A DNA stretch of 27,277 nt. It comes from Haplosporangium gracile. Taxonomy: Eukaryota; Mortierellomycota; Mortierellomycetes; Mortierellales; Mortierellaceae. Each line of letters begins with the position of its first letter. Within the stretch, counting starts at the first letter, position 1. Positions 1,181 through 21,902 of the stretch are shown one piece after another. The stretch lies in contig JAAAUF010000575.1 in assembly GCA_015499985.1 (NCBI GenBank), positions 1-27,277 on the forward strand, given 5' to 3'. The position numbers and the translations under genes were made by a program. Under the pieces are notes generated by a model that worked only from the letters and a program-made list of their open reading frames with translations, did no database searches and had not been told where the DNA came from.

Positions 1181-1444
1181 CTACTCCCCGGTAAAGTCAA
1201 CAATGACATCCTCATCGACATATGCGATGTCTTGATCGAACTCGGCTTGAGCAGTCGTGGCACTAATACTGAGAGCATGGAAATGGATAGTGAGATCGTC
1301 TTGAATGACGGGAGATTGGTCCGTGACAGGTTCGGCGATCACGTTCTCGGTGTATGAAATGATCGTGACTGGGAGAGGCGACGGATCGATGTTAGACTCA
1401 GCATGCCTCAGAAATCGGAAGAGTCGTGCAAAGTTGAACACCAT
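1181..1444 (-). CDS. paralogue A: small protein of the six-member array
   Basis: An 87-codon open frame runs from an ATG at 1444 to a TAG at 1181-1183. I do not recognise the protein from any known family. It is assigned to the local family because residues 12-45 carry the shared pattern: LRH at 12-14, then NIDPSPLP, then the core TIISYTE at about 27-33, which E has almost identically (TIISYSE). The C-terminal half is acidic (FDQDIAYVDEDVIVDF) and lacks the VQxQL helix of C, D and F. There is no signal peptide or membrane segment. The ATG is chosen because it sits about 115 bp after a good TATA box and its length to the PR/LRH motif (11 residues) matches B and E. The 5' UTR is rich in CAACAAC. 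The frame is open further upstream to 1693, but that extension crosses the TATA box. Function unknown. Confidence 0.62.
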   Translation of the reverse strand: MVFNFARLFRFLRHAESNIDPSPLPVTIISYTENVIAEPVTDQSPVIQDDLTIHFHALSISATTAQAEFDQDIAYVDEDVIVDFTGE

Positions 1445-1559
1445 TGCTGAGATAAATGTATTTTGCTGTAGTTGTTGTAGTGGTGTCGCTGTGTTGTTGT
1501 TGTGGCGATGGTGGTTGTGGCGGTTGTTGCGTCCTTTCTTTTCCGGGGGCACAGTACGG

Positions 1560-1569
1560 TATTTATATA
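1560..1569 (-). promoter_or_regulatory. TATA box of paralogue A
   Basis: Reads CTATATAAATAC on the minus strand, about 115 bp upstream of the ATG at 1444. The same 12-mer precedes paralogue D (10031-10040). Confidence 0.6.
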
Positions 1570-3430
1570 GGCATGTGCAATGTGCAGTCTCTAACTGTCC
1601 CACCATTGGCGAATGTGTGAAATACGCAAAAGAGGAGCAGCTATGCTTTCCCTCATGATGCTCTTTGATGGGAAAAAGCTTTCGGTTGTACATTTCGGTT
1701 GATAAAGGGCTACAGGAAGTACAGGGCTATGCTAGCACATGTGTTTGCGATGCGTGAGAGACAACCGCTTTGTCAGTTGTGGACATATGTTTTAGTATAC
1801 GTATACTCTCTTTTGACACCTGACTTTGCACTACGTCTGTGTGCAAGTTAGAGTACCATAGCGCAAGTAGAGATGGAAATTTCGACTGCTGGTGCATACA
1901 AAAAGAAAAGGAGGTGCTGAACACACATCCTCCCCTCATGCCATCGCTCTCTTTTTTTTGTGGAAATAAAATTTCATTTCAAAAAGATGGTGCGCTTGCA
2001 CAGGTCCGCATCGTTCGTGCTGGGGCTCAAACCCTCTTTCCGGATTTTTCTCCAATTGAAGTCGACAGTCTAATTGCACCAGCTCACAATCATGCAACTT
2101 TATATACTCTAGTGAATATGACTTTTATTTTTCGCTCATGAAAACCATCTCGCAAGAAAAGAGGAGGCAAGGAGGGAAGAGAACATAGAAGAGAGCTTTT
2201 GTTTATTTGCACATCTCGCAATTGCTACAGTGCTTTGCTAATCATCCATCCACCATTGATCAGCACAATTCTTGATGGGCTAGCACCCCATTGCTTCTCA
2301 TCCTTAGTGTAGACCTGTATTGTTGAGAGTGATGGAGCAGAGGAACAAGAGGATGCATACACCCTCACTTCGCGCCTTTTTAATTTCTTTTGTTGGCATT
2401 TTAAAATAGTTCATTATTTCCACGATTGAAGGAAGGTGTGCGAAAGGAGGGAGCGAGGAGGAGAGGGGAGAGGACGCAAACATGTAAACACAACCCGAAC
2501 TGATGTGAGTAGAAAACGGTTTGGTAATATTATGTCGCCTGATCACCTTCCCTCAGAAGGTGAATGAGAGGTCAGACTTTGAGGAACGTCTTATACAATT
2601 CTCCTTTCCATTCCGATGCGCGAATATGGTCAGCGACGGTCTCTTTGTCGTAATCCCTACTCTCACTTCCCTATCAACCACACTCTTCATACAACTTTAA
2701 CCACGATAAGCAAATGACGGAGAACAAAAAAAAGTGAGATTTAATCCAGGTAAAGATAAAGAGGTGAATCTTTTTTATGAACTCTGTTCTCATTTCGCGC
2801 TGTGTTGAGCCATGATTTCAAAGTACAGGAGAGATACTCTCCTGTCCTCTTTCACCTTGAGTCAACAAGCACAATCGAACCTTTCCCTCAATACCCTGTT
2901 TCTTTCTTTTTTTGTTTTTTTTTTTACTTTCTGTATTTTTCCTCGTTCTTCTCCTCTCTTCCTCTGTCTGATAAACAGAAAAGTAAGAGCAATTGAGCCA
3001 TTGACGAGGTGTCAGAAGTCAATAGTGTGTGAATGACAAGTGTTGTGAAGAGAGTGATGAGGAAGCGTGAATGCACATTGCTGGAGATTCAGAAATGAGC
3101 AAGTTGGTCATGGGTACATGCTGTGAATTTTTAAAACTAAAGGGAAGTACTCATTAGCGGTACTGTTTTGGCGTGAGTATGGAAAGAAGGAGTCCTGCCA
3201 GCGGAGCCACAATGCTATATCGAAAGGAAAGGCGAAGGCAAGGGAAAACGAGAGTGAAGAGCAAAAGAGAAGTGGAAGGGAGATGAGACTCGTCGTCACT
3301 CGTTTCAACATGCAATTTTATTAGCATCAAAGAGGGAAAAAACGTGACCTGGTTGAGCGTGGACCATGAAAAAGAAAAGCGTGACACAAAAAAAAGTAAC
3401 AAGTGATAGGAGCTCGACGGCCTGCCATTG
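1570..3430. other. intergenic between A and B
   Basis: About 1.9 kb without a supportable gene. It holds the upstream region of A and the presumed 3' trailer of B. A T-rich stretch lies at 2900-2950. Two short segments (about 2845-2880 and 3018-3040) resemble segments in the same order downstream of E. Open frames here are low-complexity Ser/Phe/Leu translations of pyrimidine tracts. Confidence 0.5.
3018..3040 (-). repeat. 3'-flank repeat shared by B and E, copy 1
   Basis: GTCAATAGTGTGTGAATG here matches GTCAATAGTGTGTAGATG at 12422-12439, with AATGACAAG/GATGACAAG close by in both. Each copy lies 330-410 bp past the stop codon of its paralogue, so it is probably a remnant of the segment duplication that produced B and E. 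Confidence 0.5.
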
Positions 3431-3811
3431 CTACACCTGCTCTGGCTCCTCAGTCTCCAGGCCGTCGGTTTGATCAACTATTATATCATTCTTATTCTCA
3501 TCCCCGACCTCCGCAGCAGGAATGTCTTGCTCGGCATCATCGTCTTGATCAACAGCATCGTCGTCTTGATCGGCTACATCTTCTCCTTGATCGGCATCTT
3601 CTTCGTCTTGATCGACATCATCTTCTTGTTGATCAGTGGCAACGGTCAAAGCATCAAGCTGCGCTTGAATCGTAGTCAACTGGGCTTGGATTGCAGGCAG
3701 GTCAGCAAGTGGGGGATTGTCGTACGACACGATGACACCTGAAAGAAACGAAGGAGAGTTGTTGTCCACTTGCCTTGGAGTGTGACAAAAGAATATATCG
3801 TGATGGGACAT
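3431..3811 (-). CDS. paralogue B: small acidic-repeat protein
   Basis: A 126-codon frame runs from an ATG at 3811 to a TAG at 3431-3433. Residues 12-33 (PRQVDNNSPSFLSGVIVSYD) align without gaps to E (PRHIDNNEPMILPNTIISYS), both with 11 residues before the PR, which supports this start. Next comes a helix-like QAQLTTIQAQLDALTVA segment (about 42-58), equivalent to the VQxQL helix of C, D and F. About five copies of a seven-residue D-Q-x-[DE]-[DE]-x-[AV] unit follow (about 60-95), giving a strongly acidic tail. No signal peptide, membrane segment, cysteine motif or known domain is visible. A TATA box lies about 75 bp upstream. A possible acceptor (CTTTCAG) inside the frame near 3740 leaves a small chance of a spliced 5' end. 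Function unknown. Confidence 0.65.
   Translation of the reverse strand: MSHHDIFFCHTPRQVDNNSPSFLSGVIVSYDNPPLADLPAIQAQLTTIQAQLDALTVATDQQEDDVDQDEEDADQGEDVADQDDDAVDQDDDAEQDIPAAEVGDENKNDIIVDQTDGLETEEPEQV
3541..3640 (-). repeat. 21-bp coding repeat in B
   Basis: On the plus strand, TTGATC recurs about every 21 bp (near 3546, 3567, 3588 and 3609), each followed by similar CTTCTTCGTC-like sequence. The repeat is in frame with B and encodes its seven-residue acidic unit. Confidence 0.75.
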
Positions 3812-3885
3812 TAATACGTAAAAGAATGCGTCAGTGTTTTCTTATATTCTTGCTTGATTACTTGAGAAACAGGACATTCATGGGC

Positions 3886-3893
3886 ATTTATAT
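3886..3893 (-). promoter_or_regulatory. TATA box of paralogue B
   Basis: Reads CATATAAATGCC on the minus strand, about 75 bp upstream of the ATG at 3811. Confidence 0.5.
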
Positions 3894-4199
3894 GAAAGAA
3901 GACCAAAAAAGCAAAGGAAAGGTGAGGCATGGCCATCCCGTCGTCGATTCCTCTGTTGGCAAAGGCAAGGGACGACAGCCATTTTTTTTTTCGTTTACTC
4001 CAACTCAATGCATCCCCGAAGCATAGACCCTTTTACCAAGGATGTCAGAAATGAGGGACTGGACTTTGTGCCACGGTACATATAGACAAGAGACTAGCTC
4101 GTTCACATGCCCAAGTAATTAAAATAAATTTTCACTTTCCAATAGACTGCGCGCAAGGTGTAAGGGGCTAATCGTTTTTTTCCAAGGTCGCTCTTCTCA

Positions 4200-4450
4200 T
4201 TCCATCGTTCCCCTCTTGGTTGGACATGCCGCAAAGGGAGAGAGTCTTTCTCCAGGGCCATTCTTCTCGATACTTTTTTTAGGCTGGCCTGCAAGGGCAC
4301 AAAAAAAGAAAAAAGGAAGAAGAGCTGTCCAAAATGAAATGAGCAAAAAAGGGGAAGATCAAAAATGAGGAGGACGCGTGGGTGATCTCTTCAAATATGA
4401 AACAGAGGGGCAACAGCGCACGCTATTTATGAAATTGGATGAAACTTGTG
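4200..4450. repeat. duplicated segment, copy 1 (partner 8755-9000)
   Basis: Order and spacing match 8755-9000 at an offset of about 4.55 kb. AGAGAGTCTTTCTCCAGGG pairs with AGAGAGTCTTTTTTCAGGG, GCCTGCAAGGGCACAAAAAA with GAGCTACAAGGACATAAAAA, and TTTATGAAATTGGATGAAAC with TAATCATGAAACTGAATGAG. Neither copy keeps a reading frame, so it is probably non-coding or long dead. Confidence 0.55.
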
Positions 4451-5289
4451 CTTCAGGAACCACACGATTTCAGGTTCAACCTTGCGGATTCTTGTTGTTT
4501 GAGCGCCGCATGGTTTCCACAAGAGGACTCAACAATACAATATATGATGAAATTAAAATAAAAAAAGACCAAGAACGGATGGAACTCGTTAAACGTTACA
4601 CTTGGAAGCGAAAGAGAGGATCGGAGGAGAAGGAGATGAGATTAACAGGAGTTAGAAAAGAGAAAGCACAGGAATGTAGTGAGGAACTAGCAGAAGAACA
4701 GCATTGAAGAAGGCATAGACAAATTAGGATGAAGAAAAGACCAATCATCCTATTGCAAGTGTGTTGTATTGAGGCGTATCTTTCCGACATGTTTGAAAGG
4801 AACATATTCGCCTTTGGCCTATTTGTTTCAATCTATACCAGTCTACCATGCAATATTAACATTTTGTCCAGTTGGGCCAAGATGATGGACCATTTTGGGT
4901 AGGGGAGACATGCCGTACAGATAGATAAGGGCTTGTTTTCCCTCTCTCTCTCTTGCAGCAGTACTTGCATCCACCCCCATGCACACTCGCATTGCGTCCT
5001 TGCCCCTAAAGCGCTGAAATTAGCATCTGCCAACGTGTTGTCGAGGTTAGAACGGGAAACAAAGCATCAAAATCGCCAGCATTTCGTACAAATCATTTCA
5101 TGCTTGACCAGCGTGATGCCCTTACATAGACTGCATGCAAAGTAAGATACACAGAGGCAAAGAATAAAAATAGAGATGGAAGGTAAGAGAGCAAACAAAA
5201 TAAAAATAAGACCTAGTCGCGGATCACAGCTCTACAAGAAGACATGCGAGAAAACTATGCGACAAAAGTCGGAGAAATACTAGAGACAG

Positions 5290-5360
5290 AGTCAACAAAT
5301 CGTGGAGAGTGATCATCAATCAATGAGTATCAATACTTTATTTGTCTCGGCCAAATAAAG
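5290..5360 (-). repeat. conserved 3' tail block, copy downstream of C
   Basis: Contains GTCAACAAATCGTGGAGAG, GATCATCAATCAA and CAATACTTTATTTGTCTCGG on the plus strand. Read on the minus strand it carries AATAAAGTATTG. Near-identical blocks lie at 9015-9080 (after D) and 15310-15385 (after F), each about 600 bp past the end of its paralogue. A polyadenylation region is the simplest reading; that is inference. Confidence 0.55.
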
Positions 5361-5991
5361 AATTAAAAAAACAGCGGAAAAGAAGCACTACATGCTAACA
5401 AAAAGAAATAGATGAGAAAAACATACTAAGCAGACACCGACAGCCAAAAGCGAAGCAATGAAAGAAATGAAGGTTGTTGGAGTCACCAGTTGGAAATTAA
5501 ACAAGACAAAAAAAAAGTTGCACAAAATCAATCGAAAAAGGTGCGAAAAGAGAGGTATTGGGTTTAGATGAGTGAGATGGTACGGTGTGTGTCGTGGTGT
5601 GTTGGTCCAATGAGTGTGTCTGTGGGAGACACAGAAAGGAAAGGGAAAGCAAGGTAACAGCAGCAAGGAAATAAAGGGGGGGAGGTTAGGCAGGAAGGTT
5701 AGATGAACAAGAGAATTGAGGCGTTAAGAGAGACAAATGGAGTCAGGTTGGACAAATATAAGAAGTGGGACAAAGGAGGGGAGATGAAGTAGGCGGATAA
5801 CAAAAGATGGTATAGGCGAATGGATAGCGCGACAAAACCGAATGGGCTACATAGAAGGGGGGTTGGCCAAGACAACAGGGAAGGAAGGCGGACAAACCGG
5901 CAGGACTGATGGACAAATATAGAGGATAGGTTGGGCCGTCAAGAGGAGACACTTTAACCAACATGCACGGCAAAAATATGATTGAGGCGGA

Positions 5992-6285
5992 TTACTTCTG
6001 TTGTGGCGCCTCGAACCCAAAATCATCCTCGACATGATTGAGCATTGCGTCCTCGACTTCGACGATGTTACCTTGTTCGACATCGTGTTCTTGAGCGGCA
6101 CCAATGGTCGGGACATCCAGCTGGTCTTGAACGGCGACCAGCACACCTTGGAAAGGGGGCTGTTGAATGAAGGAGGAATTGTCGTATGGGACGACGATGT
6201 CGATAAGTGAGGAAAGGGTTTCCACTCCTCTTCCTCTAACTGCAAGCTCGCCGGCGAACCATCCCAGGGAATGAACTGGATTCAA
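5992..6285 (-). pseudogene. paralogue C, 5'-broken copy
   Basis: A minus-strand frame open from 6285 to a TAA at 5992-5994 (97 codons) has no ATG; its first usable codon is TTG. From about 6227 down it is clearly a family member: TLSSLIDIVVPYDNSS aligns with D (TLTSLSDTVILYDDTP), followed by LVAVQDQLDVPTIGAAQEHD and an acidic VEVED segment ending FGFEAPQQK, like F. An ATG exists where the family start should be (6260-6262), but its frame is shifted and hits TAG at codon 9. No TATA box is found at the expected distance; the DNA there (6240-6503) looks instead like a coding fossil on the other strand. Loss of the start by an indel or rearrangement is most likely. Rescue by an upstream spliced exon is possible but unsupported. 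Confidence 0.55.
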
Positions 6286-6707
6286 AGACCATCTATTCCG
6301 ACACCCCTGTAAATCCTAGCGTTCAACCTCTTGCCGCCGCTTACTATCACCTACGACAGAAATGACGCCGTACCTTCTGAGACACTTATTCGGAAATTAG
6401 TCCAGGCCAGGCCAAAACAACCCTCCAATTCTATATTCAACAACTAACATCAACAAATACTGTACTCGATGGTCAAAGTAAACGGAAGCGTGCATGCTCA
6501 CCAGTAAGTACCTACCATTCGCCTCACTACAGGAACATCCTCCCATCCTCCTTGTGCTTCATGTCAACCCTTTAACCACAACAGATACATAACGGAAAAT
6601 GCCAAGTTAAACAAACATCACTACCATCCTTTTTGCTTTTGTATTGTCAATCCTCCTCCTACTCTGCCTATTTCGCTCATCTCATGTCAATTGACACGAA
6701 AAATTGA
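6240..6707 (+). pseudogene. coding-like fossil, two exons, unidentified
   Basis: One plus-strand frame reads GNELDSKTIYSDTPVNPSVQ and on to YYHLRQK. It meets TGA at 6363-6365 and TGA at 6378-6380, then stays open (DTYSEISPGQAKTTLQFYIQ) to a good donor, CCA|GTAAGTACC, at 6504. An acceptor CCACAACAG with an upstream CTTTAAC branch-like motif gives an 81-bp intron (6504-6584), phase 0. The frame then continues open from 6585 to TGA at 6705-6707. No start codon is identifiable; a stop lies at 6237-6239. I do not recognise the protein. Both internal stops could come from CGA codons by one transition. A second plus frame (6330-6440) is also open, so the frame choice is uncertain. It overlaps the 5' part of paralogue C. 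Confidence 0.3.
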
Positions 6708-7246
6708 TTAAAAGGTAAGCTATGGCGCTTGTCCTTTTTTGGTGGTGATGGGGATGCAAGAGGTGGAGGTAAATAAGCCGTGAGTACAGTACGTTTATGT
6801 TGCATGTGTGAAGATGAGTGTGATATGAGAAAGGTGGATGTGGTTGATGTGTGATGCAAAATGAGAGGCTGGTTATTGGTGCATTTGGTGATGGTCAAGA
6901 TTGCCGGTAACTGGCATAAAAGCACCGTCTCGCAAGCCCGTTTTAGTTGTGCTTGCCTCAAATAAAAAAAGAAAAAAAAATAAAAGAGTTTCAAACCAGG
7001 TAGTTCATGTCAAAGAGGTGCCACCCTTTCTTGATTTTTTTTTTGAGTGTTATTTATTTAACCGTGTAGCGAGGTCATACATAACGTACGCAATAAACTG
7101 CAAAGTGACATTCCACCGGAATATCTCCCACTTACTGTTGACACCACCCGTTAGTGCGACGATCCTGGAGGTTCCGTTGTCGTTGTCTGCGAACTTCGTG
7201 TTCCCTTTGTCATGTTCTTGTCACCGATAGGGTGGAGTTGTATGAA
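6708..7246. other. intergenic before the secreted-protein pseudogene
   Basis: Nothing certain, with A/T runs around 6960-7040. On the minus strand, the stretch 7246 to about 7140 still looks coding. One frame continues directly past the TAG at 7247 (FIQLHPIGDKN); another reads NTKFADNDNGTSRIVALTGG. It may therefore be the degraded 3' end of the neighbouring gene. Confidence 0.4.
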
Positions 7247-8405
7247 CTAGTTTTTGTGAACCCAATCCCAGACCATCCACCTTCTGTGCTGGTTGAACAA
7301 GACAAGCAAGTGTTCGTACCCACTGTGATCCGGAAACAACGTCATACAGCTCACTCCACAACTCGCGACCTTGTTCGAAAGGGTCTTCTTGCCAAGGTCA
7401 GCTTCGTCGTTATGGAAGAGGACCTTCTTGATAGCCATCGCCGACGCCACATCCGAGTTCTGAGTGCCAAGATGGTGATGCAATCAACTTTCCTCCATTG
7501 AATGTCCATATCCATAGGGGTTGATGAATGACCGCCTCCAGTCGTAGTCGTCGCAGGTTGATCAGGTTCAAATGCAGAGTAAAGCTTGACGATGCGTCCG
7601 TGCATTGTGATCAGATGCTGACGCGGCTCTAGACTCTCGTACTTGACAACACTGTCAGGGTTGATTCGAACACACTCCCTGGCCATCTTGCGTTCAAGAC
7701 TTGGCGATGCACGGAATTGATTTATCATCCAGTTGGAGAGACAGGCCATGGGTGTCACTGGTACCCTCACCTCAACGACCTTGAGCATCAGCCAAACGCC
7801 AAGAATATGCGAATCAGTGGCATTATTGACCCAGGGACGAGCACGCTTTTAAAGCGATGACAACGACGACACACATGCCTCCAATAGTATTCTCGGGGTA
7901 TGCCTGATCTCGACCACCTGCGTCATTTGCATTATGTCGCGGGTGAAGGGATGGTACCAGGGCTGGGCCTGGGGGCGGGTCTTCTTATCCTTCTCCCAAA
8001 CATCGCTGCCGCAACGAGTGATGGGGTTGGTCAGATGGGGCAAGTTGTAGAACAAGATCTCGTGGTCATGAGGACAAGGGTCGTTACCGTTGCTTTTGTA
8101 GGGGACGGACTTTGAACGGTGATCATCGAGGCGGAAATGGCGATGTGAAAGGCTCGATCCATGTTATATATCGGGGATCCCATGCGGATACACTGGGCAC
8201 CGGCGGCGGCTAGAGCCTCTGGGTCGGTCTCAAAGTACTGTGTCTCGAAAAGTTTGATCCTGTGGAGGCGATGACGGTCAAACTCGTCCAAGGAGGAAGG
8301 AGACGATGGGAGGGAGGACTGGTGGCCCCCTGCGACCACGGCGAACTCGGTGAAGACTAAAATCTGTGACGTCAGCAGCAGCAGAGGCAGCAGGGAGGTA
8401 GGCAT
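7247..8405 (-). pseudogene. secreted protein gene with frameshifts and a stop
   Basis: An ATG at 8405 opens a frame with a good signal peptide (hydrophobic LLPLLLLTSQILVFTEFAVV, cleavage probably near residue 26). It continues through LFETQYFETDPEALAAAGAQ to about 8125. Strong coding bias then moves to another frame (HDHEILFYNLPHLTNPITRC, EKDKKTRPQAQPWYHPFTRD). That frame meets TAA at 7849-7851 and resumes in the same frame (ARPWVNNATDSHILGVWLML, VVKYESLEPRQHLITMHGRI). Near 7485 the bias moves again (ASAMAIKKVLFHNDEADLGK) and ends at TAG 7247-7249. Introns bridging these breaks would be only about 27-35 bp with poor consensus, unlike the 94-397 bp introns elsewhere here, so two frameshifts and a nonsense codon are more likely. 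A TATA-like AAATTATATG lies about 105 bp upstream (8511-8520). I do not recognise the family. Sequencing error could explain some breaks. Confidence 0.5.
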
Positions 8406-8754
8406 CGTCGGTGGCGTTAGCGTGGTCGGTAAGGGGGGCAGGCTAAACCAAGACGAACCCCCAGGGCGGCGTCCTTAAGGCCATCGTCTTCCAGTCTCTT
8501 TCTTTAAGACCATATAATTTGACCAGTTGGTATAAGTGTAGGTGTTTCCTGGTATTTTATTTTCATGTTCCCCCAAGGAAATGAAACTTTCTTTTTGTGT
8601 ACCTCCCGTGCTTTCTGCAAGTAAAAAAAAGTAAAGCTATTTGCTCCAAACAAGGCTGGGGTGACATGCTCTAACAAACATCATCATAAAAAAAATAAAA
8701 AATGGGCATTGGAAAATCGCTTACTTTCTTACATTGATGCCTCTTTTTACAACA

Positions 8755-9000
8755 GTAGTATTGGAGCTCATCAACGTACAAGGAGAAAGAGAGTCTTTTT
8801 TCAGGGGGCTGCTATTCTCGGCCCTCCTTTTTATGAGCTGAGCTACAAGGACATAAAAAAAATCGGGAGGGAAGGACATTCAAATAATGAAGTGAACAAA
8901 AAAGGATAAGAAAACAACACGAGAGGGACGTCTGATAATTTGAAACACGATGGAAATCAACGCGTGTTAATCATGAAACTGAATGAGACATCACATGAGA
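8755..9000. repeat. duplicated segment, copy 2 (partner 4200-4450)
   Basis: Second copy of the segment described at 4200-4450. Here it runs almost directly into the conserved tail block (9015-9080). In the first copy about 840 bp separate it from the next tail block (5290-5360), so DNA was gained there or lost here. Confidence 0.5.
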
Positions 9001-9014
9001 AATCGAGGGACCAA

Positions 9015-9080
9015 GTCGTCTATTCGGGAGAGAGAGATCATCAATCACCCAAGGTCAATATTTTACTCGCCTTAATGAAA
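9015..9080 (-). repeat. conserved 3' tail block, copy downstream of D
   Basis: AGAGATCATCAATCACCCAA and GTCAATATTTTACTCGCCTT align with the blocks after C and F. The AATAAA of the other copies is degenerate here (GTAAAATATTG on the minus strand). Confidence 0.5.
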
Positions 9081-9477
9081 TAAAAAAAGAAGCAATAAGA
9101 AGAAAGAGAGTCGCAGCCACTATAAAATAAATAAAAATGAAGTCTTGGTAAAGAGGCACACTATGGGTATTGATGGCAGAAGTGATAGAACAAATTTAAC
9201 GCTATTGGGAACATGAGAGGTACAGGACATAAAAAAAGTAAATGGCTGCACAAAATTCTTTGCTGGGAATAAAATGTGGGTGATGAGAGGAGAGAGGAAG
9301 CATGGTGTGTTTTTAGATTGTCCAGACAAAGAAACTATACGCGTGAGACGGAGAGAGAGAGAGAAAAGGAGAGCAAGAAAAGAAAGACGGGAGAAGGTTG
9401 AAAAAAATTTTGAGTTACCATTTGAGATGAAAAATAAGTAGAAGAAGAAGCTCGTTTGCCACCACCTTAGACGCAAA

Positions 9478-9541
9478 TAAAGAAAAATAAGAGACCCAAA
9501 AAAAGAAAAATAAGAGATCCAAAAAAAGAAAAATAAGAGCT
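9478..9541 (+). repeat. 24-bp tandem repeat, about 2.7 copies
   Basis: The unit AGAAAAATAAGAGA plus CCCAAAAAA is repeated three times, with one T/C change in the second copy and a partial third copy ending in GCTCG. Confidence 0.85.
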
Positions 9542-9691
9542 CGTTTTAAGGATCCGCCAACAGCCTTAGGGACAAGACGAAAAGACAGACAGAGACGGCA
9601 AGATGAATTTTGCAGACACCGGAGGGGCTAGCGTGCGTGACAGAATTTTTTTGGCTGAGGCGACTACTTGCCTTGCGCGTCCTCTTCGAAC

Positions 9692-9943
9692 TCAATTGGT
9701 AGCAGCATGATCGCCCTGCATGTTCTCGACTTCGACAACGCTGCCTTGTTTGACACCTTGTTCTTGGGCAGCACCAGTGGTCAAAGTTTCTATTTGGACC
9801 TGAACGGCAACCAGTGCATCCTGGAGAAGACGTGGTTGGATGAGGGGAGTGTCATCGTATAGTATGACAGTGTCGGAGAGTGAAGTAAGGGTATGGTCAG
9901 TGTGCCAACGGAGCCGAAGAATGTGCCTGAGATTGTGTGGCAT
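9692..9943 (-). CDS. paralogue D: small protein, C-terminus shifted
   Basis: An 83-codon frame runs from an ATG at 9943 to a TGA at 9692-9694. Residues 1-22 (MPHNLRHILRLRWHTDH...) match the start of F (MPRNVRLILQLSRHTNH...). The core DTVILYDD (about 24-31) follows, then LVAVQVQIETLTTGAAQEQG and VVEVENM, matching C and F. The stop comes about ten residues early. Removing one T from AATT just before the TGA would restore a tail ending EFEEDAQGK then TAG, like EFMFEEGTQKK in F and FGFEAPQQK in C, so a one-base insertion in D is likely. The rest is intact and the promoter is good, so it may still be expressed. Function unknown; no known domain, signal peptide or membrane segment is visible. Confidence 0.6.
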   Translation of the reverse strand: MPHNLRHILRLRWHTDHTLTSLSDTVILYDDTPLIQPRLLQDALVAVQVQIETLTTGAAQEQGVKQGSVVEVENMQGDHAATN

Positions 9944-10030
9944 GTTGAAACCGTGGGTATGTGTTGTTGTGGATGAAGGTAGTCGTTGCGGCTGTCTTTT
10001 CTTTTTTCAAAAAAATAAGTAACAGTTTGG

Positions 10031-10040
10031 TATTTATATA
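10031..10040 (-). promoter_or_regulatory. TATA box of paralogue D
   Basis: Reads CTATATAAATAC on the minus strand, about 90 bp upstream of the ATG at 9943, identical to the box of A. The 5' UTR after it contains CCACAACAACAC, like other members. Confidence 0.6.
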
Positions 10041-10865
10041 GCCGCGCGCAAAATGGACCATATGCGACATACAGTTCTTGTGGGCACTCATCGAGTTTGT
10101 GGCAGAATCTGGCCTTGAATCAATGCATGATTTGCAAAAAAAAAAATTGCACGGGGACCCCTGGATTATTGAATAAAAGGAGGTGAGAAAACGCATTAAT
10201 ACATTATTAAATTAACGGAACCGATCAGGAAAGGGAGGAAAAGAAGAGGTCGTTTAGGCCCGTCCTATCCTCCCTCATATTACGAGGGACGTTGGTTTCT
10301 ATGAACGGAACCAGCATCAGAACCGAAAGTAGCAAATGGAGGGAAATATGTGATAAACATTCATCTCCCTTCCAACTTGAAACACGGGGCTGCCTAATGA
10401 TGTCAAGTCAGTATAATTCCACGCCCCATGCCCCATCCCTCATTCCCTTGTCCAAATTCCTTAAGTGTCCCCGCCACGAATGAGTTAGGCTTAATTTAAA
10501 TTTTGTTTTAATTGTAGACATGGGAAGAATGGATATTGCTTTTCTTGTTATGGCGAAGTCGCTCAAATTGTTCTTTGTTCAGTTGATAGAGCAAGGGAAC
10601 AAAGAAACGAGAACTAAATGCCAGAGAGAGGGACGCGGCATGAGCAAAGACAAGAAAATAAAAAAGTAAACCAACAGCAAACAGCATTTTCGCATCTAAT
10701 TCTTCCCTCAACATGCGTGGAGCAAATCACACCGAGTCTGGAGTATGTCTGGTAGCTGTTACTACATTTCACAAGATGTCGGCATCGCATACTCCATTTT
10801 TCAGTTATAACCATCACCATCATGTATTCCTCCTACCTTCTTGGTCGGATCTGAAACGAATAGAG

Positions 10866-11213
10866 TACAGACGAACATCGTTTTTGCGTCCAGTTTGATA
10901 GTGAAATTGAACGCAAAAATGAATTCGAATATTTGAATTGACCTCCACAAAAGATTATTCTTAACCAGTGCCAAATATATAGCGCACGAGACAGAAGACG
11001 CTGAGCCGTAAGTCTTACTTCACTCCCAACATAAAATGAGGTGAAGTGGGAGACGTGTTGATGGAAGTAAATTTACGACTCAGCGTCTTCTGTAAGTTCT
11101 GTCTCATGCACTGGTTAAGAATAATCTTTTGTGAAGGTCAGTTCAAATGTTCAAATTAGTTTTTCTGATCAATTTCACTATCAAAATGATCATAAAAACC
11201 AGATTCGACTGTA
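10866..11213. mobile_element. MITE/foldback element, 348 bp with TA ends
   Basis: The two halves are inverted copies over almost their full length. Left end TACAGACGAA pairs with right end TTCGACTGTA; TTTGATAGTGAAATTGA (10894-10910) with TCAATTTCACTATCAAA; a 26-bp arm at 10946-10971 pairs perfectly with 11108-11133; and ACAGAAGACGCTGAG (10991-11005) with CTCAGCGTCTTCTGT (11079-11093). The outer TA on each side fits a TA target-site duplication, as in Tc1/mariner-type elements. There is no coding capacity, so it is non-autonomous. Confidence 0.8.
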
Positions 11214-12421
11214 CTTGTTGATTTCCACACTTTTCTCTTCTCTCCTCTTCAGCTTTGCTTCTTTCATTTCCCCTAGGCTCGTCTTCATTTCCCCCTCTCT
11301 TTTTTACCTTTCCTAGCTGCGAAAATCCATACAATACTTGCCTTCCTTTACCCTTCACTCATCCCCCTTCCCTCATACTTTTCTTCTTCTTTCTCCATTC
11401 CTATTTGCTACTCATCATCTCCTGCCCCTTTTATCCCTCTTTTTTCCCTCCCATGCTCGTTCTCTCATTCTACTCTTACTCTTTCTTGCTCATTCTTATT
11501 TATTTCCACTCCTCTACTTTCTCGAAGAAACCACAAATAATACGCACCACTCAACAGCCCTCACTTCGTCCTGCGGCAACCAACATCCATCCCCATACAG
11601 TGTACATCGCATCGATCATCGGTTATATATTATTTTTTTTTCACCAAGCATTGGACTCCTGCATTCTTGCTCATTTTATCGTTTTTTACCTAGCTGCCTA
11701 TATCGCGCTCTCTTTTATTGTTTTCATAATAACAACATAGCGTCATTCAACCACGCCGCAGAAAACCGGATGAAGAAAAATGGGGAGCCAGTTTCAGACT
11801 GTACAAGCTAAGAATACGGTACATTTTTACATTTGTTTGCATTAATACTGGCCCCTGGCTTTCAAGGAAAGAGGATCAGTGCTTCTTCCCTATCCTCCTT
11901 CACCCTTAATCAACTAGCTAAGGTAGAATAATTTTACCCCTATTGTTACTGTTCTCCTATGACTTAAGAATTTAATCCATTAGACCTGGAGACTTTTTTT
12001 CGACAAGCACACAGTGTTGATGTGATGTAATAGATGAGAGTGAGTGAGTGAGTGCATGTTGTCTAAATAATGCAGTAGTGAGCGGGTCGACCATGGGTGC
12101 ATGCTGTAATGATCGAGGCGAAGAGGGCTGAGCAGGGTTGATGTTGTTGTAGTTTTATAGCGGGTGTGAAGTTGAAAAATCCTGGTCGGTTAAGGAGAAA
12201 GGTCGCTTTGCAATGTGTACGAAAGTGAGCGATAGGAATATGTCTATCCCCTTTGAAAAACGTTAAATACAACGATGTGGCTAAGCGATATTGGCACATT
12301 GGAATATCTTAGAACCGGGCTGTGCGTAATATATATAAAAATAGAAAGCTTAAATCCCCCACTTACTTTGTTAATTGAACCATCATTTTAGAGACTTCAT
12401 AGAGGCGACAAGATGACAAGT

Positions 12422-12439
12422 GTCAATAGTGTGTAGATG
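12422..12439 (-). repeat. 3'-flank repeat shared by B and E, copy 2
   Basis: GTCAATAGTGTGTAGATG, the partner of 3018-3040. A second weaker match (CCTCCTTCACCCTTAATCAAC near 11900 with CCTCTTTCACCTTGAGTCAAC near 2850) lies in the same order. Confidence 0.5.
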
Positions 12440-12753
12440 TGTAGGCGATGTAATTAGTTTAATAGGTGTAGTTTGAGGAGGAAGAAAGGGAGAAAGTGAG
12501 AAAGCGAGTGGGTGAAAAGGATAAGTGGCGATGGCGATAAAGAAAACCGCGATCTTTATGGCACGCAGCAGAGGGGCGCTGAAGGTGGCTAGGCTCATTG
12601 CTTGCTGCCCCAAAATGAAGGAGGGATTATGGTCTGTGCGAGGTGTGCGCTGTTCTTGAGCGGTGTACTCGCAGACCTATGTCTCCGTACAATGGCTCCG
12701 TCCTAGGTGTCTGAGCCAGAAGAGTTGCCATGACCGACGTCTCCTTGTCTGGA

Positions 12754-12993
12754 TCAAAGGTGAACCATCCGAAGTGCGAGAAGGACTCGAATAATAATTA
12801 GTCGACAGGGGACGGAAACTGGATCGGCTTGGATGATGACCATCTGAACTTGGCCGGTGTTGTTGCTGCTGCTGTGTGAGGGCTGGACAAAGGGGTGTTC
12901 GCTGTACGAGATGATCGTGTTCGGGAGGATCATTGGCTCGTTGTTGTCGATGTGTCTTGGGACTCCGTAAATGCGCTCGATGTTGCGTGGCAT
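12754..12993 (-). CDS. paralogue E: small protein, divergent C-terminus
   Basis: A 79-codon frame runs from an ATG at 12993 to a TGA at 12754-12756. The start MPRNIERIYGV agrees with F (MPRN) and D (MPHN). PRHIDNNEPMILPNTIISYS (12-31) aligns with B residue for residue, and TIISYSE with TIISYTE in A. A Ser/Asn run (about 40-45) and QVQMVIIQADPVSVP occupy the place of the VQxQL helix. The remainder (RLIIIRVLLALRMVHL) is basic and hydrophobic, not acidic as in other members, and a second frame stays open beneath it to about 12610. A frameshift after about residue 60 is therefore possible. A TATA box lies about 130 bp upstream. Function unknown. Confidence 0.6.
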   Translation of the reverse strand: MPRNIERIYGVPRHIDNNEPMILPNTIISYSEHPFVQPSHSSSNNTGQVQMVIIQADPVSVPCRLIIIRVLLALRMVHL

Positions 12994-13121
12994 GATGTAG
13001 AGTAGTACTGTATGGAGATGGCAATTGTTTTGTTGTCGTTTTTGTCGTCTTTGTTGAACTAAGTGAGGGTAAGATGAAGAACAGAGAAAGTAAAAGCTGG
13101 GAGAGGAGGGCTACATTGCAT

Positions 13122-13131
13122 CCTTATATAA
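13122..13131 (-). promoter_or_regulatory. TATA box of paralogue E
   Basis: Reads CTTATATAAGGA on the minus strand, about 130 bp upstream of the ATG at 12993. Confidence 0.55.
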
Positions 13132-15309
13132 GAGAATCAAAGTCGGTTACTGGCGACCATGACATTAGTGGACAATACCTTTGTTGAACCCTGATGAGCG
13201 ACCTGGTCTGATACCTGATGGATACCGCACAGTTGCTGTCACATCTCTTTCGCTAATTAATCGCACCTCCATGTTTCCCCAGCCATTTATTGTTACACGG
13301 CATGGAAAGTTAATCGTTATGGCGGTCATGTTGCACAAAAAGGGGTACAACAACTAATTTGCTAAGTATTGTCTGTTCGCCTTTTTGCGAACCCACTTGC
13401 CTTGTCCCTTAATTTGTCCTCCAGTATACCCCATCCCTTAATGTTATGCTCATTGGTCTTCACTCAAAATTTCCAACAATTGGAGCTATTTGTCCTTTGT
13501 TTGGATGCATCCTAGATAAACAACAAGAGAGAGAAGAAACGGCGACCTGTTTGAACTTTTAAAAAGGAGCGTGTCTGGTGTGCATAATACATCTCTATGT
13601 GTGTTTGATTCGTCTTCGCCGTCCGTCAACGGCAGAACTATTTTCGTTGCACTTTGAAGTATAGAGGGGGCGAAGGCAAGAAAGAGTGTAGAAGTGAAGT
13701 TGAAGAAGGGTTTATCAAGCAAAAAAAAACTCAATCACTACCAAAAAAAAAAAGAGCGAAAGCAACCATGCGCCTGTTGGTCGATGCAGGCGTCGGAGAA
13801 GAAATGGGATAAAATAAAATAGAAAAGAAAGGGGAAGAAAAAGGGGCAAAAAATGCTGAACGGAAAAACAAAAGGAGTAAGAAGGGATGCGAGGGATGCT
13901 AGGGATACAAGACAAACGAGAACGGGGAAGTGAAAGTGAAAACTTCTAATCGCTTCCAAGTATTTTTCGCTCAACCAGAGCAAAAAAGGCGAAGGCTTGT
14001 TTGTTGTGCAGAGGGTTCACGCACTGGCATGGAGAAGTACACCGATCACGGTTGCTATGTACCAACTAACTGATGAAAGAACAAACAAAAGACGACAGAA
14101 AAGGCACCGGGCTACATTTCACTAGTGCAATATACAGAGGAAAACAACTATTTTTGCCAAACAACTGTTGTTGACATCCTTTCTTAAAATATACATGAAC
14201 CAGTAGAAGCAATGGCCGCTTTTTGGTTCTGCGGCGAAGATTTAAATTTTCCGTTCAAACCCAATGAATTAATGCAAAACCATGCCCGCCAATGCAAAAG
14301 GGATAATCGAACATAAGGAGAAAAATGGCGAAGGGATGGCGGTAGGACAAAAAAGAGGGGAGAAGTAAGGAGGACAAACAACGAGGGATAGATAAGGATA
14401 AAGGGAAGGAAGAACAAAAAAAGGGAGGAAGGGAGGCAGAGAAGGGGAGGAGTTGATGAAACACTTACAAACAATTGGTGACCAGGTCAAAACAAAAACT
14501 GAGCAATCGAGATCGGGGTCAAGATCGGGACCAAAAAAGAGGATAAATGTCGAAAAAAGATAAAACAAACAGAGGAGAGAATGGATCACATCATCCATGG
14601 CGGTACAAGACATATGAACAATCCCCTAAAAATAGAGTGAGGTTTTCTTTCGGTAAGTTATTCTTAGGCAGAGCTGGATTCCCTATTTTTTTTGTTTTTA
14701 AGAAATTTATTGCGTTGTGGGTGTGCGTGCAGTCAGAGCTGGATCCCTTTGCAAACATAAAATCACGTGTGTAGCCTGGGTATCCTTGAGGTGTTTTTTT
14801 GCTCTCTTTGCATGAACGGGATGGTCGATCCAGCCCACCAACAGTTCTCAAATAAAGAAGTATCTTCCTTCTTTGTTTTTTTCTCACGCATGGCTCCAAC
14901 CATCGCATAAGAGGTGAAGAGAAGGAGGGTGCATAAGCTAGTCAGGCAATAAAAAGGTGATTTCACTGCAAGACGCTGCTCCTGGGACAATAATGTAATG
15001 ATGTCACTCTTGGGTACCGATGTACATTCGCTCATATACGAAAATGTAATTGGTCGACGTTTGAAGATCTCCATTGCGCGTCAATGGGTGTTTTTTTATC
15101 TTAATGTACAAAGAGAAGAAGATAATGTTTGTTCAAAAGGATGTACTCATATGAGCTGCATACGAAAGAGACGGAACTGAGTAGGAGAGTAACGATAGGG
15201 ACGGAGTGCAAGAGCGAGAGCAAAAAAATGAGATGTGGATTTGAGTTACAGACTAAGAAGAGAAAAAGAGACGCGAGAAATACTGAGCTTAAAAAAGTGA
15301 CGCGAAAAT

Positions 15310-15385
15310 GGAGGAGAAATTCAACGAATCACGGGTAAGAGTGATAATTAACCAACAGTGACCAATAGTTTATTTATCTCAGTCG
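15310..15385 (-). repeat. conserved 3' tail block, copy downstream of F
   Basis: TTCAACGAATCACGGGTAAG, AGTGATAATTAACC and CAATAGTTTATTTATCTCAG align with the block after C. The minus strand carries AATAAACTATTG. It lies about 570-630 bp past the end of F. Confidence 0.55.
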
Positions 15386-15949
15386 ATGGAAGGATGTGAC
15401 AGATGGCTTAAAGTGGAACGACTGGAAGAAAGGATGGGTGACGGAGAGGGGACTTCAAGGTAAAATGGTGAAGAAAGGGGGTATGGTTTTACAAAAATTG
15501 TTCGCAAGCTACAAGATCTGAGTGAAGGAGATGGAAAGAGCAATAATACGTGTACGTTTGTGAGAAAGAGGATGATGCATGTTATTGTGTGTCAAGGCTA
15601 TGAGAGCGACAATGCGTATAAGAAAGTGGGGGAAAGGTGGACGAGAAGGTTGAATGAACAAGAGGGCTGGATACTCGAGAGAGACAATGAGGGCAAGATG
15701 GACAGGTATTTCAGGAGGGACAAAAGAGGACGGTATGAGACATGCAGATAAGGCAGACAACAAAAGGCAGATGGAAGGCACGACAAGGACGGATGTGCGC
15801 CAAAGAAGTGTAAATAAATAGGACGAGAGGGAAGGCAGACCAGATGACAAGACGGCAGGGCGAACGGACAATTAGAGAAGGCAGGGTGGACCTTGCAGAC
15901 ACAGGGGCGTTGCTTGGGCGAACATTCAAATCAAATTTTTAAAGATGAA

Positions 15950-16231
15950 TTATTTTTTCTGTGTCCCTTCCTCAAACATAAATTCATCATTAATATGGTC
16001 GATCATCATGTTTTCAACCTCGGCGGCGCTGGCTCATTCGACACCTTGTTCTTGAGCAGCACTAATGGACAGAGTACCCAATTGGGCTTGCACCACAGTC
16101 AGTTGGTTCTAGAGAGGAGGCGGTTGGATGAGGAGGGACTCATCATATGAGACAACAGCGTCGGAAAGTGTTGTAGGGACATGGTTAGTGTGTCGAGAAA
16201 GTTGGAGAATAAGTCGTACATTGCGAGGCAT
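15950..16231 (-). pseudogene. paralogue F with two nonsense codons
   Basis: The ATG at 16231 opens MPRNVRLILQLSRHTNH and the core DAVVSYDE, closest to D. Codon 41 is TAG (16109-16111) where the relatives have a residue before the helix; CAG by one transition is the likely ancestor. Reading on in the same frame gives NQLTVVQAQLGTLSISAAQE, then TGA at codon 66 (16034-16036), then AEVENMMIDH and a tail EFMFEEGTQKK ending in TAA at 15950-15952. Homology to C and D on both sides of each stop shows that these are disabling mutations in a 93-codon gene, not chance. The TATA box is retained, so it may still be transcribed. A 40-residue product is the most it would encode without readthrough. Confidence 0.75.
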
Positions 16232-16310: not shown

Positions 16311-16319
16311 CTTTTATAT
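16311..16319 (-). promoter_or_regulatory. TATA box of paralogue F
   Basis: Reads CATATAAAAGAC on the minus strand, about 80 bp upstream of the ATG at 16231. Confidence 0.5.
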
Positions 16320-16650: not shown

Positions 16651-16750
16651 TACAGTCGTAAGTGGTTTTTATGGCCATTCTGATAGTGAAAACGGCCATA
16701 AAAACCACTTTCGACTGTAAAAACGTATCTAAAAACTACTTTCGACTGTA
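16651..16750. mobile_element. miniature foldback with an extra terminal copy
   Basis: TACAGTCGTAAGTGGTTTTT (16651-16670) and its inverted partner ending TTTCGACTGTA at 16719 form a 29-bp inverted repeat with two mismatches around a loop CTGATAGTGAA. A third terminus, AAAAACTACTTTCGACTGTA, ends at 16750. TACAGTCG ends, TTTTTATG and TGATAGTGAAA are shared with the ends of the 348-bp element at 10866-11213, so both belong to one family. It is far too short to code for anything. Confidence 0.75.
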
Positions 16751-17423: not shown

Positions 17424-20400
17424 CTACTCATTCCACCCAGACCACATCTGCATACTCGCTCTCAGCCCATGAACGTGCATAACCTCCAACTGCTCACATC
17501 TATGACAGAACACCACCCCCTTCCCGGGCATCCCCACACGCTCCCTCCACTTCTGCTGCAGCTCCTTCAATTTCAATTTCCTCCTCTCCTCCCTCGCAAC
17601 ATCCTCCCCCTTCGCCCCTCCTCTTGACGGAGAACAACCACCAAAACAGGAAAACAGCGAAAACGGCGTAACGGACGCCTCGGCAGCCGCATCACCTCTT
17701 TGCATCTCCGTCCACAACCGGCGCACCCACCCCTGCTCAGTCTTCGTACTGATCCCCTCGAGACCGTCCCATCCTATGGCGAAGAGTCCCCGGATGCGAG
17801 CCTCGACGGTGTCAAAGAATGCGGCTGTGTTGGAGAGGTTGTCATGCGGGTTGAACTGTGCTTGTGGGGATGTCCAGAATTGGGCACGTTGGTGGGTGGG
17901 TTGGACAATGACTTTGCCGTCGGAGGTTTGGATGTCCATACGGTGCCAACGTCCCTTTTCGCGTTTTGAGCGTAGTGTGGAGAGTTGTGACTGCGTAAGT
18001 GATGGTTCCTGAATTATTTGCTGGACGATTTGGAGTGACTCGAAGTGGTCAGTGTTGAGGGGCGAATCGAGGGCGAAATGGAACCGAGGCAGGAAGACAT
18101 CTGTTGATGGTGATGATGATGTAGTATCGTCGGTACGAGTGATGGTATCCCCGTTGCTGTTGCTGTTGCTGTTGCTTCGTCCACTGCAGGTTTGGCTATC
18201 GATATCCCGATCAGAGCGACGGTCACATGCAAGAGTGAAAAACAGCACAAACCGATTCTCCCAGCTGCTAACATCCCCCGTCTTCTTCTTGGCCAGATCA
18301 TAATCCTTCGTCAACAGCTGCGAATCCGAAATCGGACGACCAGGCTCAAAACGGTAATGAAGCGGCTCCCCCCAGACAGCCAGAGGGTACGCTCTCACAA
18401 ACGACTCGCCGACTCGGAGACCGCTATAAAATTCTTGTCGACCACGTTCAATCTGCAAAGAGAGAGGGAGAAGATCCTGCCAAGTCTTAAGTCTTGCAAG
18501 TAGAGGAGTTGGTGCTGATTTGGCGGCTTCGACAAGTCGAGTTGACGACGAGGAGCCTAGAGGGTTGGTGGTCATCTCGGACATGGTAGTAGGTTCCGCA
18601 GAGATGACGACCAGTCGCTTCGGTGCCGCACGCTGGGTCCAAATATGGTTCTTGGGTCGACAGCACCACCAGATGAGGCCTTCACTACACCCCACCGTCT
18701 CCTTCCCGGATCCAAAATCAACCTCCAGCTCCGTCAGCGTCACAGTAGGTCTCGTACCAGCCGAAGGAGGCGGGCGCTGCATCTCCTTCATTCGTCCCAG
18801 GATCACCTCTGTACTACCCGGGAAATCGGATGGCAGAAAGGCATTCTTCTCAGGCGACCAGACACTAAAGTCCTCTCCGTTCCATCTATCGCCCCACTCG
18901 TTTGAATTGTCATCACAATAGTTCCAGAGCGTAAAACTCAGCATGCTGGCATCCATCGCATCAAGCAACATCTGGAGGGCAAACTCTTGTTTGGGAGATC
19001 CGTACCGGTGCTTGAAGCTAGCCTTGTCGTGCATGTCCATCGGCAAACCCGTTTCACCCATAAGGATGCCGTGGTGTGGACCCATTGCAAAGCGGATGTC
19101 GGACTGGATGCCATGGACTTGATCCTTCCATGCACCTCCGACATTTGACCAGCCCAACTTTAGAGCTCCAAGAACCGACCAGTAGATACCGCGTTTATAG
19201 CCAAGGAAATCCAGAGTGAAGGGGACAAAGTCGCGAGTAACATTAGAGTAGCCATCGTAAAAGTGAGGTGCAACGACGATATTGTCGCTGACATCGCCGA
19301 GAGGGTCGAAGATCGGATGCTGACACGCATTCTCGTACAGATCGTCCTCCACATCCCGCGACGCCATCTGGTCCTTGTCGAGATCTGGATCACCGCTACT
19401 GCTGTTGTTACTGCTCCTTGTAGTCCCATTGGTGACAGCTGGAGGCACGGCACGTCGACTGACAGCTGCAGTAGTGTGCTGAGTATGGAATGACTTTGGA
19501 GACTTCCATCTCACCAGGGACCGAAACATATTCGCCAACTGATCTGAAGCTCCACCAATCAACATCTTCTGCAATCGGAACATGGGTGGCGCCTCATTGA
19601 TAGGCGGCTCAACAAAGATGGTCAGTCTCGGATCCTGCTGTCGGAGGCGGAGCGAAAAGGTGTTGACAAAAGGTAGCCAGAAATCACGCTTCCATTCGAC
19701 CTCCTTGCCTGGTTGGAACCCTGGCGGGATGTAGCCCTTGGTCGGTATCCGTTGGAAGTAGTTGGGTTGGAGTAGCTTGCCTGTCTCAGGATCCCAGACT
19801 TTGTGATCAGCCCAGATGCAGAGGTTGCTATAGCCTGCGGGATCAGGCCAACCAGTCTTGGAGATGTGAGATTCTGTCACATCACTGGTTGCCGTGGTTT
19901 CGCCTGTCTGCTTGGATCCGCGACCGCCAAGCAAGGATGTGATTGCAGACTGTGCTGCCGAAATCTCGAGTTGAGAGACAACATGGAAGGGAGCCGCCAT
20001 GCGGTGATAACCTCTGTTGTCATGAGAAGGTGCCATAGGTGGCACCGAAAGTGCGTGGATCCTGTGTTCGCCAATCGCGTCTGGATCACGATAATGTTGC
20101 TTGTGATGCTTGTTCGATTTCCAGTAGGGTCGCTTCCAGAGGTTGACGTTCTCGGTGTTGACCTTGACTGTACCCTTCTTGCCTGGTCCCAAAGCACCTG
20201 TCGCCCAGACCTGACACTCGACCGTCTTTCCCTGCGCCAGCTGCATACCTTGGATAGGTGTAGGGCAAGTCCCAATCTGAAGATCCTCCAACTCGAGCAA
20301 CTTGTTCAAATCCGGATGGTTAAGGTATCCAGCGGTCGGCTCATTCAAAGAATCAAACCCCATCACAGTCCCCGAAGCCATCAACGCAATCTCTCCAGCC

Positions 20401-21902
20401 CTACCGCTCTTCAAAACTTTCGCATCATCCTTCTGTATCCGATCAGCAAGGTGCGCAAACGCCTCCATGAAATGGGCCTGCAAGAAATGCTGAATATTAA
20501 CCTGCCCCCGCTGGACAAACTCCACATCAACCCTCGGGATCTCGACAAGGTTCTGGATAGGCGAGGGGGCCTTGACGCCACCGTTCATCCCGCGACGGAA
20601 GGCCTCGTCCGAGACGACAGTGGAATGAACTTTTCGAAAATGGTCAAGGACCGTCTGAGAAAGGGGGACCACGGCTTGGGGAGCAAAGATCTGGCCAGCA
20701 AAGAAGAGGGTGTACATGGTTGCTGATGCGACCTTGCTGTTGTTGGTTGCCCAGATCATCTTCGGGTAATTTCTCTTGTCCTTGTACGTCTATTGTATGT
20801 GTTTTAAGTATTGCGTTAGTTGAGATATAATTGAAAAGAGACATGGAGCACGGACATTCCTCTAGAACGATAAGAAAACTTACGTTCTGGGTGATGGCAG
20901 ATCCTGTGGGCTCTAACTTGGTAACATCCATCCCTGCGAGCTCAATAGTCCATCCAGGCCTATATGCACGAAATGAGGGCACATTAGTAAGTTGACGCAG
21001 GAGCAATGATAGGGCGGCGAATAAATCATTTTCGCTGTGCGACAGTGGACAAACAAAGACCATAGACATGGACGACTTACATTCCAGAACCACCAGTGAA
21101 TCGACTCCAGCAGTCGACATGAGGATCGAGGAAGCATTTAAGTCCAAACTTGGCTGCGATCTTAAGCAGCTGGATGAGGTAGTCAATGTATTCTTCGTCG
21201 TAGATACCACTATAATAGTAGAATATGTATGTTAGGAGACAAGAACAACAAAGGAAAAAATAGAACGAAAAAGTGTCAATATACAAACAAACAAACAAAC
21301 AAACAAACAAACAACATGACTTACGGTCCAGAATGCTCGAGTGCCTCCCAAGGCACCAAGACTCGGAGGATCTGACACCCCCACCGAGCAAGCCTCTCAA
21401 AGTGCATCTCAGCCTCGACCAAAGGAAACGGCCGATTGACAAACGAGACACTCCGGTGCTCAAAAAAATGCTTCTCCTTATACGAGTACATCACTCCAGG
21501 AATCTCGCCCTTATTCCTGGTCCTTTCACTGTCTGTCGTCGACGTTGAAGAACTTGACCCTGATGCCACGTGTTGTCCTCCTCCTGCTGACGATTCCTCC
21601 GATGACGATGGTGACAAGGGTCCAGTGGCTGTAGGAGTGGCTCCATAGTAGACTGGCGACCCCGGTGCAAGGCTACTACTCATCGCACTAGATCGGATAT
21701 TGGCCTCTACGATCTCTTCGGCGACTTGTGATGCAGCAGCCTTGTAGAAGGGCACCTTGGTGGCCCCTGACATGTTGACTCCATGGAGGATGATGACCCT
21801 GTTCTGTGGATCGAGGATCCAGCCGTCCTTGGCTGTTAGTCGACTTGATTCCCATGCGTTGTTGTAGTGCGATATGTATGCTGATTCGGGTATTAAGGTC
21901 AT
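17424..21902 (-). CDS. GH5 (subfamily 12-like) steryl-glucosidase/glucocerebrosidase
   Basis: Four exons (21902-21325, 21209-21081, 20959-20884, 20789-17424) joined at GTAAGT...TAG sites give 1382 aa in phase. Diagnostic segments are GLKCFLDPHVDCWSRFTGGS (215-234), MPGWTIELAGMDVT, the exon 3/4 join QNTYKDKRNYPKMIWATNNS (260-279), and FTLWNYCDDNSNEWGDRW. The acid/base is Glu411 in SLNEPTAGY and the nucleophile Glu840 in MGETGLP. The family (fungal EGCrP1/EGCrP2, GH5_12) hydrolyses glucosylceramide or ergosteryl glucoside; which one cannot be told from sequence alone. No signal peptide, so cytosolic or vacuolar by analogy. It is much longer than the usual roughly 750-900 aa because of Ser/Gly- and Asn-rich insertions near 75-130, 700-735 and 1130-1155, all in frame. 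The distal region (RAYPLAVWGEPLHYRFEPG) fits the C-terminal beta domain. A TATA box precedes the ATG by only 25 bp. Confidence 0.9.
21283..21315 (-). repeat. (TTTG)n microsatellite in GH5 intron 1
   Basis: About eight AAAC units on the plus strand, read as TTTG repeats on the coding strand, start four bases after the donor GTAAGT of intron 1. Copy-number change here could affect donor use or intron length. Confidence 0.9.

Follow-up and report, generated by a model that had tools for sequence, protein, structure and literature searches.

Organisation of the locus

The window analysed here corresponds to the whole of contig C713 (27277 bases) in the assembly of Haplosporangium gracile, a species assigned to Mortierellaceae in NCBI taxonomy; the assembly comprises 37.5 Mb in 1157 contigs. 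Six similar stretches, A to F, lie on its minus strand, and their positions agree with those at which the initial annotation had placed an array of six small paralogous genes (Table 1).

Table 1. Position, strand and character of the features of the array and its surroundings (numbering from the first base of the window; offsets of TATA boxes are relative to the start codon)
Feature	Position	Strand	Remarks
Member A	1181..1444	-	87 aa, ATG start, intact; five relatives, 56-83% identity
TATA box of A	1562..1569	-	TATATAAA, -125
Member B	3431..3811	-	126 aa, ATG start, intact; relative BGX30_002439, 57% identity
Tandem repeat in B	3534-3634		21-nt unit
TATA box of B	3885..3892	-	TATAAATG, -81
Direct repeat, first copy	4239-4358		upstream of B; 68-69% identity to second copy
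AATAAA 3' of C	5337..5342	-	in a block common to F and, less exactly, D
Member C	5992..6285	-	TTG in place of ATG; core and tail preserved; probable pseudogene
Broken duplicate of a larger gene	7068-8288	-	between C and D
Direct repeat, second copy	8788-8911		downstream of D
Member D	9692..9943	-	83 aa, ATG start
TATA box of D	10033..10040	-	TATATAAA, -97
Inverted-repeat element	10864-11215		near-palindromic, MITE-like
Member E	12754..12993	-	79 aa, ATG start
TATA box of E	13123..13130	-	TATATAAG, -137
AATAAA 3' of F	15369..15374	-	in a block common to C
Member F	15950..16231	-	ATG start, two in-frame stops (TAG, TGA); probable pseudogene
TATA box of F	16311..16318	-	TATAAAAG, -87
Inverted-repeat element	16651-16719		near-palindromic, MITE-like; related to 10864-11215
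GH5-like gene	17424-21902	-	probably at least two exons

The array had been described as standing alone in gene-poor DNA. This description is correct only in part, given a broken duplicate of a larger gene and two inverted-repeat elements located in or next to the region. An 824-aa open frame on another contig of the assembly (C359) matches the duplicate at 35-78% identity; the match falls into four pieces that are not all in one frame. Part of the duplicate also shows a match to contig C143 at 36%. By eye, the start of the 824-aa frame resembles an F-box; a Pfam search with this frame returned nothing at E 0.01. The longer of the two inverted-repeat elements has matches on six other contigs (C709, C513, C1070, C328, C1006 and C900). 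The direct repeat is perhaps a remnant of another duplication.

The GH5-like gene includes a large frame (17424-20759, minus strand) which is 100% identical, over 90% of its length, to a recorded Haplosporangium gracile protein. With 37.3 bits the recorded 1276-aa GH5-like protein scores above the cut-off for the Pfam cellulase family, which the large frame by itself fails to reach (16 bits). Judged from the GH5-like protein, the nearest species to H. gracile are Linnemannia elongata (86%) and L. gamsii (85%), with Dissophora, Podila and other Haplosporangium proteins at 50-61%. We found no conservation of the A-GH5 neighbourhood among 45 GH5-like matches, none of which lists a contig as long as any of those recorded with the relatives of A and B (24055, 10049, 137897, 10273 and 11934 bases); since the clusters list the longest contig only, this comparison is weak either way.

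Similarity among the six members

For the leave-one-out profiles C, D, E and F were removed singly, whereas A was taken out jointly with all five of its relatives and B jointly with its single relative. The profiles were used to search every open segment of at least 25 codons in the six frames of the window, 724 in total. All six members were recovered, at E-values from 1.4e-5 (A) to 1.6e-13 (D), with 2.5e-9 for B, 2.6e-8 for C, 2.4e-12 for E and 9e-10 for the portion of F before its first stop; the scores of C, D and F depend in part on this trio, because each of the three profiles still contains the other two members. The best non-member across the six runs had an E-value of 1.2. The similarity among A-F is therefore real and exceeds that of the controls. 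A seventh copy was not found with the full profile in the 724 segments (best non-member E 5.7).

Pairwise relationships were examined by blastp against a database of the six members only, without filtering. C, D and F form a close trio with 46-54% identity (D/F 54% over 79 aa, E 1e-26; C/F 47%, E 1e-18; C/D 46%, E 2e-17). B and E link to F (B/F 40%, E 2e-8 to 7e-8; E/F 39%, E 4e-7), while A links to E (41%, E 3e-6). Other pairs were more distant: B/C (E 6e-6 to 5e-5), B/E (2e-5), B/D (5e-5) and A/F (2e-4). A/B (E 0.5 and 0.04, one per direction), A/D (E 0.25) and C/E (E above 7) were not significant in this search, and A/C and D/E were absent from its listing.

State of the individual copies

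Conserved and decayed copies stand side by side in the array. A and B look intact. The ATG of B is immediately preceded by an in-frame TAA, and the tandem repeat within B encodes part of its acidic tail. D is shortened: compared with C and F it has a gap of 2 nt, through which the common C-terminal tail is lost. In E the family match is limited to the first 40-56 residues or so and the tail is unrelated. The first 20-odd residues of C do not match the family. F is not an open frame because of the TAG and TGA inside it. The array had been read as six open frames and six genes; with two in-frame stops in F, the first of these readings fails, and with no ATG in C and both of these copies pseudogene-like, the second is not supported.

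Relatives and distribution

Two profile searches of a set of 5.8 billion proteins returned six proteins besides the A and B of the window, five of them A-like and one B-like. The A relatives are BG015_009608 of Linnemannia schmuckeri (83% identity to A), BGX30_002440 of Mortierella sp. GBA39 (67%), EC957_011924 of Mortierella hygrophila (61%), P0050 (59%) and BGZ89_002320 of L. elongata (56%). They are hypothetical proteins of 85-87 aa, known here from protein records alone; all share the start of A, and four of the five are equal to it in length. The B relative, BGX30_002439 of Mortierella sp. GBA39, has the conserved start and the acidic tail in common with B. Unlike B, it is marked partial and has 14 additional residues ahead of the conserved start. 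All five relatives with an assigned species belong to Mortierellaceae and represent four species (NCBI taxonomy). Relatives of A and B thus exist in related genomes.

The two GBA39 proteins have consecutive locus tags, and the contig listed is 10049 bases long in either case. We read their genes as neighbours, which is also the arrangement of A and B in the window. Because GBA39 has one relative of A and another of B, the split between A and B predates the separation of H. gracile and GBA39.

Neither L. gamsii nor L. zychae, both present in the protein set, appears by name among the matches. The search relies on shared exact words and on called proteins of similar length, and relatives in these two species may be hidden by missing gene calls or by 90% clustering. 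The expectation that such short genes would be skipped by gene callers has fared unevenly: A- and B-like proteins are already public as hypothetical proteins, but no match specific to C, D, E or F was found. Scans for the A subfamily gave 116 pattern matches in viral contigs and 102 in prokaryote genome contigs, none of them confirmed.

The H. gracile assembly was searched with six protein queries (D, the L. schmuckeri and L. elongata relatives of A, the start of E, B and C), the best candidates only being scored. For all six queries significant matches were located on C713 only. A match of B on contig C859 (26%, E 0.043), ranked above D, was taken as chance, because the family profile fails there (best E 0.71) and the alignment lies inside a large other frame.

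None of the 11 members searched (F left out) had a Pfam match above the curated cut-off or an NCBIfam match at E 0.1. Weak Pfam matches of B to CDC45 (0.095) and CPSF100_C (0.83) and of P0004 to DUF7093 (0.26) were below the cut-offs and fell on the helix and acidic tail. Two matches from a PDB sequence search (E 0.47 and 0.61) were taken as chance. Among the papers listed from an open-licence library we recognised nothing as the A-F family; the species names and five locus tags gave no papers. The array represents a real paralogous family, with significant matches in its own assembly only in the array and no counterpart among the Pfam or NCBIfam families.

Upstream and downstream regions

A TATAWA motif, picked after the sequence had been read, is present in five of the six 160-nt upstream regions (all except that of C) at -81 to -137 from the start. 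On the same strand, 10.9% of stretches with a length of 160 nt contain the motif, and 4.2% of those with a length of 60 nt. Flanks were compared in 15 pairs each for the 5' and 3' sides, with 60 block shuffles each. The 5' flanks of A and D align (-136..-40 with -108..-9, z 8.6), and the remaining 14 pairs showed no similarity standing out from shuffles. As this is the only 5' pair above shuffles, promoter likeness beyond the TATA motif can be claimed for A and D only. A bacterial-type promoter scan of 200 bases found nothing.

On the 3' side, similarity is strongest between C and F (z 22.8), followed by C-D (z 5.6) and D-F (z 4.6). A local similarity above shuffles was also seen between the 3' flanks of B and E (z 5.4), for which we have no explanation. 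Within 900 nt past the stop codon, four members (A, B, C and F) have an AATAAA, and two (D and E) have none.

The similarity of C, D and F runs about 550-880 nt beyond the stops, which could be taken to mean that each frame is just one exon of a longer spliced gene with its remaining exons further downstream; the tail of E, lacking a family match, could by eye conceal a splice site. However, the aligned 3' DNA is rich in gaps and, in C and F, contains AATAAA, both of which would suit an untranslated region, and the relatives of A are recorded as proteins of about its own size with the same start. We consider the spliced-exon reading quite unlikely. In the reading we favour, each working copy is a separate short gene, in which a TATA box is followed after 80-140 nt by the start codon and then by a single uninterrupted frame of about 80-126 codons. 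C, D and F additionally have several hundred bases of 3' DNA in common, in which C and F carry an AATAAA.

Selection on the reading frame

dN/dS was estimated over the aligned codons of the three pairs within the C/D/F trio. It was 0.34 for D-F (77 codons; bootstrap 0.15-0.64), 0.39 for C-D (60 codons; 0.17-0.79) and 0.39 for C-F (71 codons; 0.11-0.76), all three values being rough because dS is 0.84-1.03. The two shifted frames of the same pairs gave 0.68-0.90. Selection acted on the frame during much of the period after C, D and F split, though C and F now look broken.

Protein features and possible role

Five members are acidic (pI 4.05-5.3), E being the only one that is not acidic overall (pI 8.0). 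The two AlphaFold models, of A and of B, were of low confidence (mean pLDDT 58.6 in one and 54.4 in the other, pTM 0.22 and 0.13 in that order) and too weak for a fold search. With the same low confidence they place a helix at residues 38-71 of B and at residues 45-49 and 51-73 of A. The helix of B (IQAQLTTIQAQLDAL) has hydrophobic residues at heptad-like spacing and much of it is kept in C, D and F. All five A relatives have prolines at the position of the would-be helix, which counts against a helix there.

An amphipathic N-terminal helix suitable for membrane or mitochondrial targeting was considered and rejected, as the hydrophobic moment of residues 2-15 was no better than that of shuffles. 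Among 12 sequences p ranged from 0.03 to 0.49, and only C, the start of which is unrelated, fell below 0.05.

The product may be an intracellular, mostly disordered, acidic protein. The conserved [IV]xxY[DST][DEN]-like stretch would then act as a short binding motif. The helix that follows it in four members (B, C, D and F) might pair either with a partner or with itself. As a molecular role, an intracellular disordered acidic protein that binds a partner via a tyrosine-centred motif, with a helix in some members, is our guess from the sequences and a doubtful one. An elaborated version, in which the array consists of young, fast-changing binding proteins of this kind specific to the Linnemannia group, tandem duplication varies one tyrosine-centred motif plus helix, and A and B persist as two distinct partners that are conserved, we hold to be unlikely.

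Small size, duplication and fast change could also be expected of effector-like proteins acting extracellularly or on a partner organism: A has 56% identity to its L. elongata relative, while the neighbouring GH5-like protein has 86% to an L. elongata protein, albeit one of another locus-tag series. However, no signal-peptide-like start is visible by eye, and an effector-like function seems quite improbable to us.

History of the array

The repeated stretches are hardly likely to be decayed copies of a transposable element rather than a host gene family: several copies are broken and two related inverted-repeat elements, the first of them dispersed over other contigs, lie in or near the region, but significant protein-level matches are confined to one array, another fungus seems to have A and B next to each other too, the reading frame shows constraint, and a DNA search with D and its flanks gave only F besides D (an incomplete test, as it also missed C).

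We favour a history in which one lineage-restricted protein family multiplied by local duplication to form a tandem array. The array would now be in birth-and-death turnover, with A and B retained, D shortened, E carrying an unrelated tail, and C and F being probable pseudogenes. The relatives of A and B in other sources speak for such a course, while the finding of relatives outside the window for these two members only counts against it, as do the pairs A/B, A/D and C/E with their non-significant similarity. This history of the array is very likely when taken by itself, and the explanation as a whole, that of a lineage-restricted tandem family in birth-and-death turnover in which A and B are kept and the others decay, is likely.

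The locus presents copies of one small gene next to one another in intact, shortened and broken states, and so offers a useful view of the birth and death of a family. With its start, core motif and promoter layout defined and relatives at hand, the family can be traced and tested in other Mortierellaceae.

Birth-and-death tandem histories are ordinary in fungal genomes. No characterised lineage-restricted tandem birth-and-death family matched A-F in sequence. The likeness to this class lies in the pattern: local copies at different stages, intact and broken, with the named relatives in one fungal family. A-F is an undescribed protein family with a familiar evolutionary kind of history.
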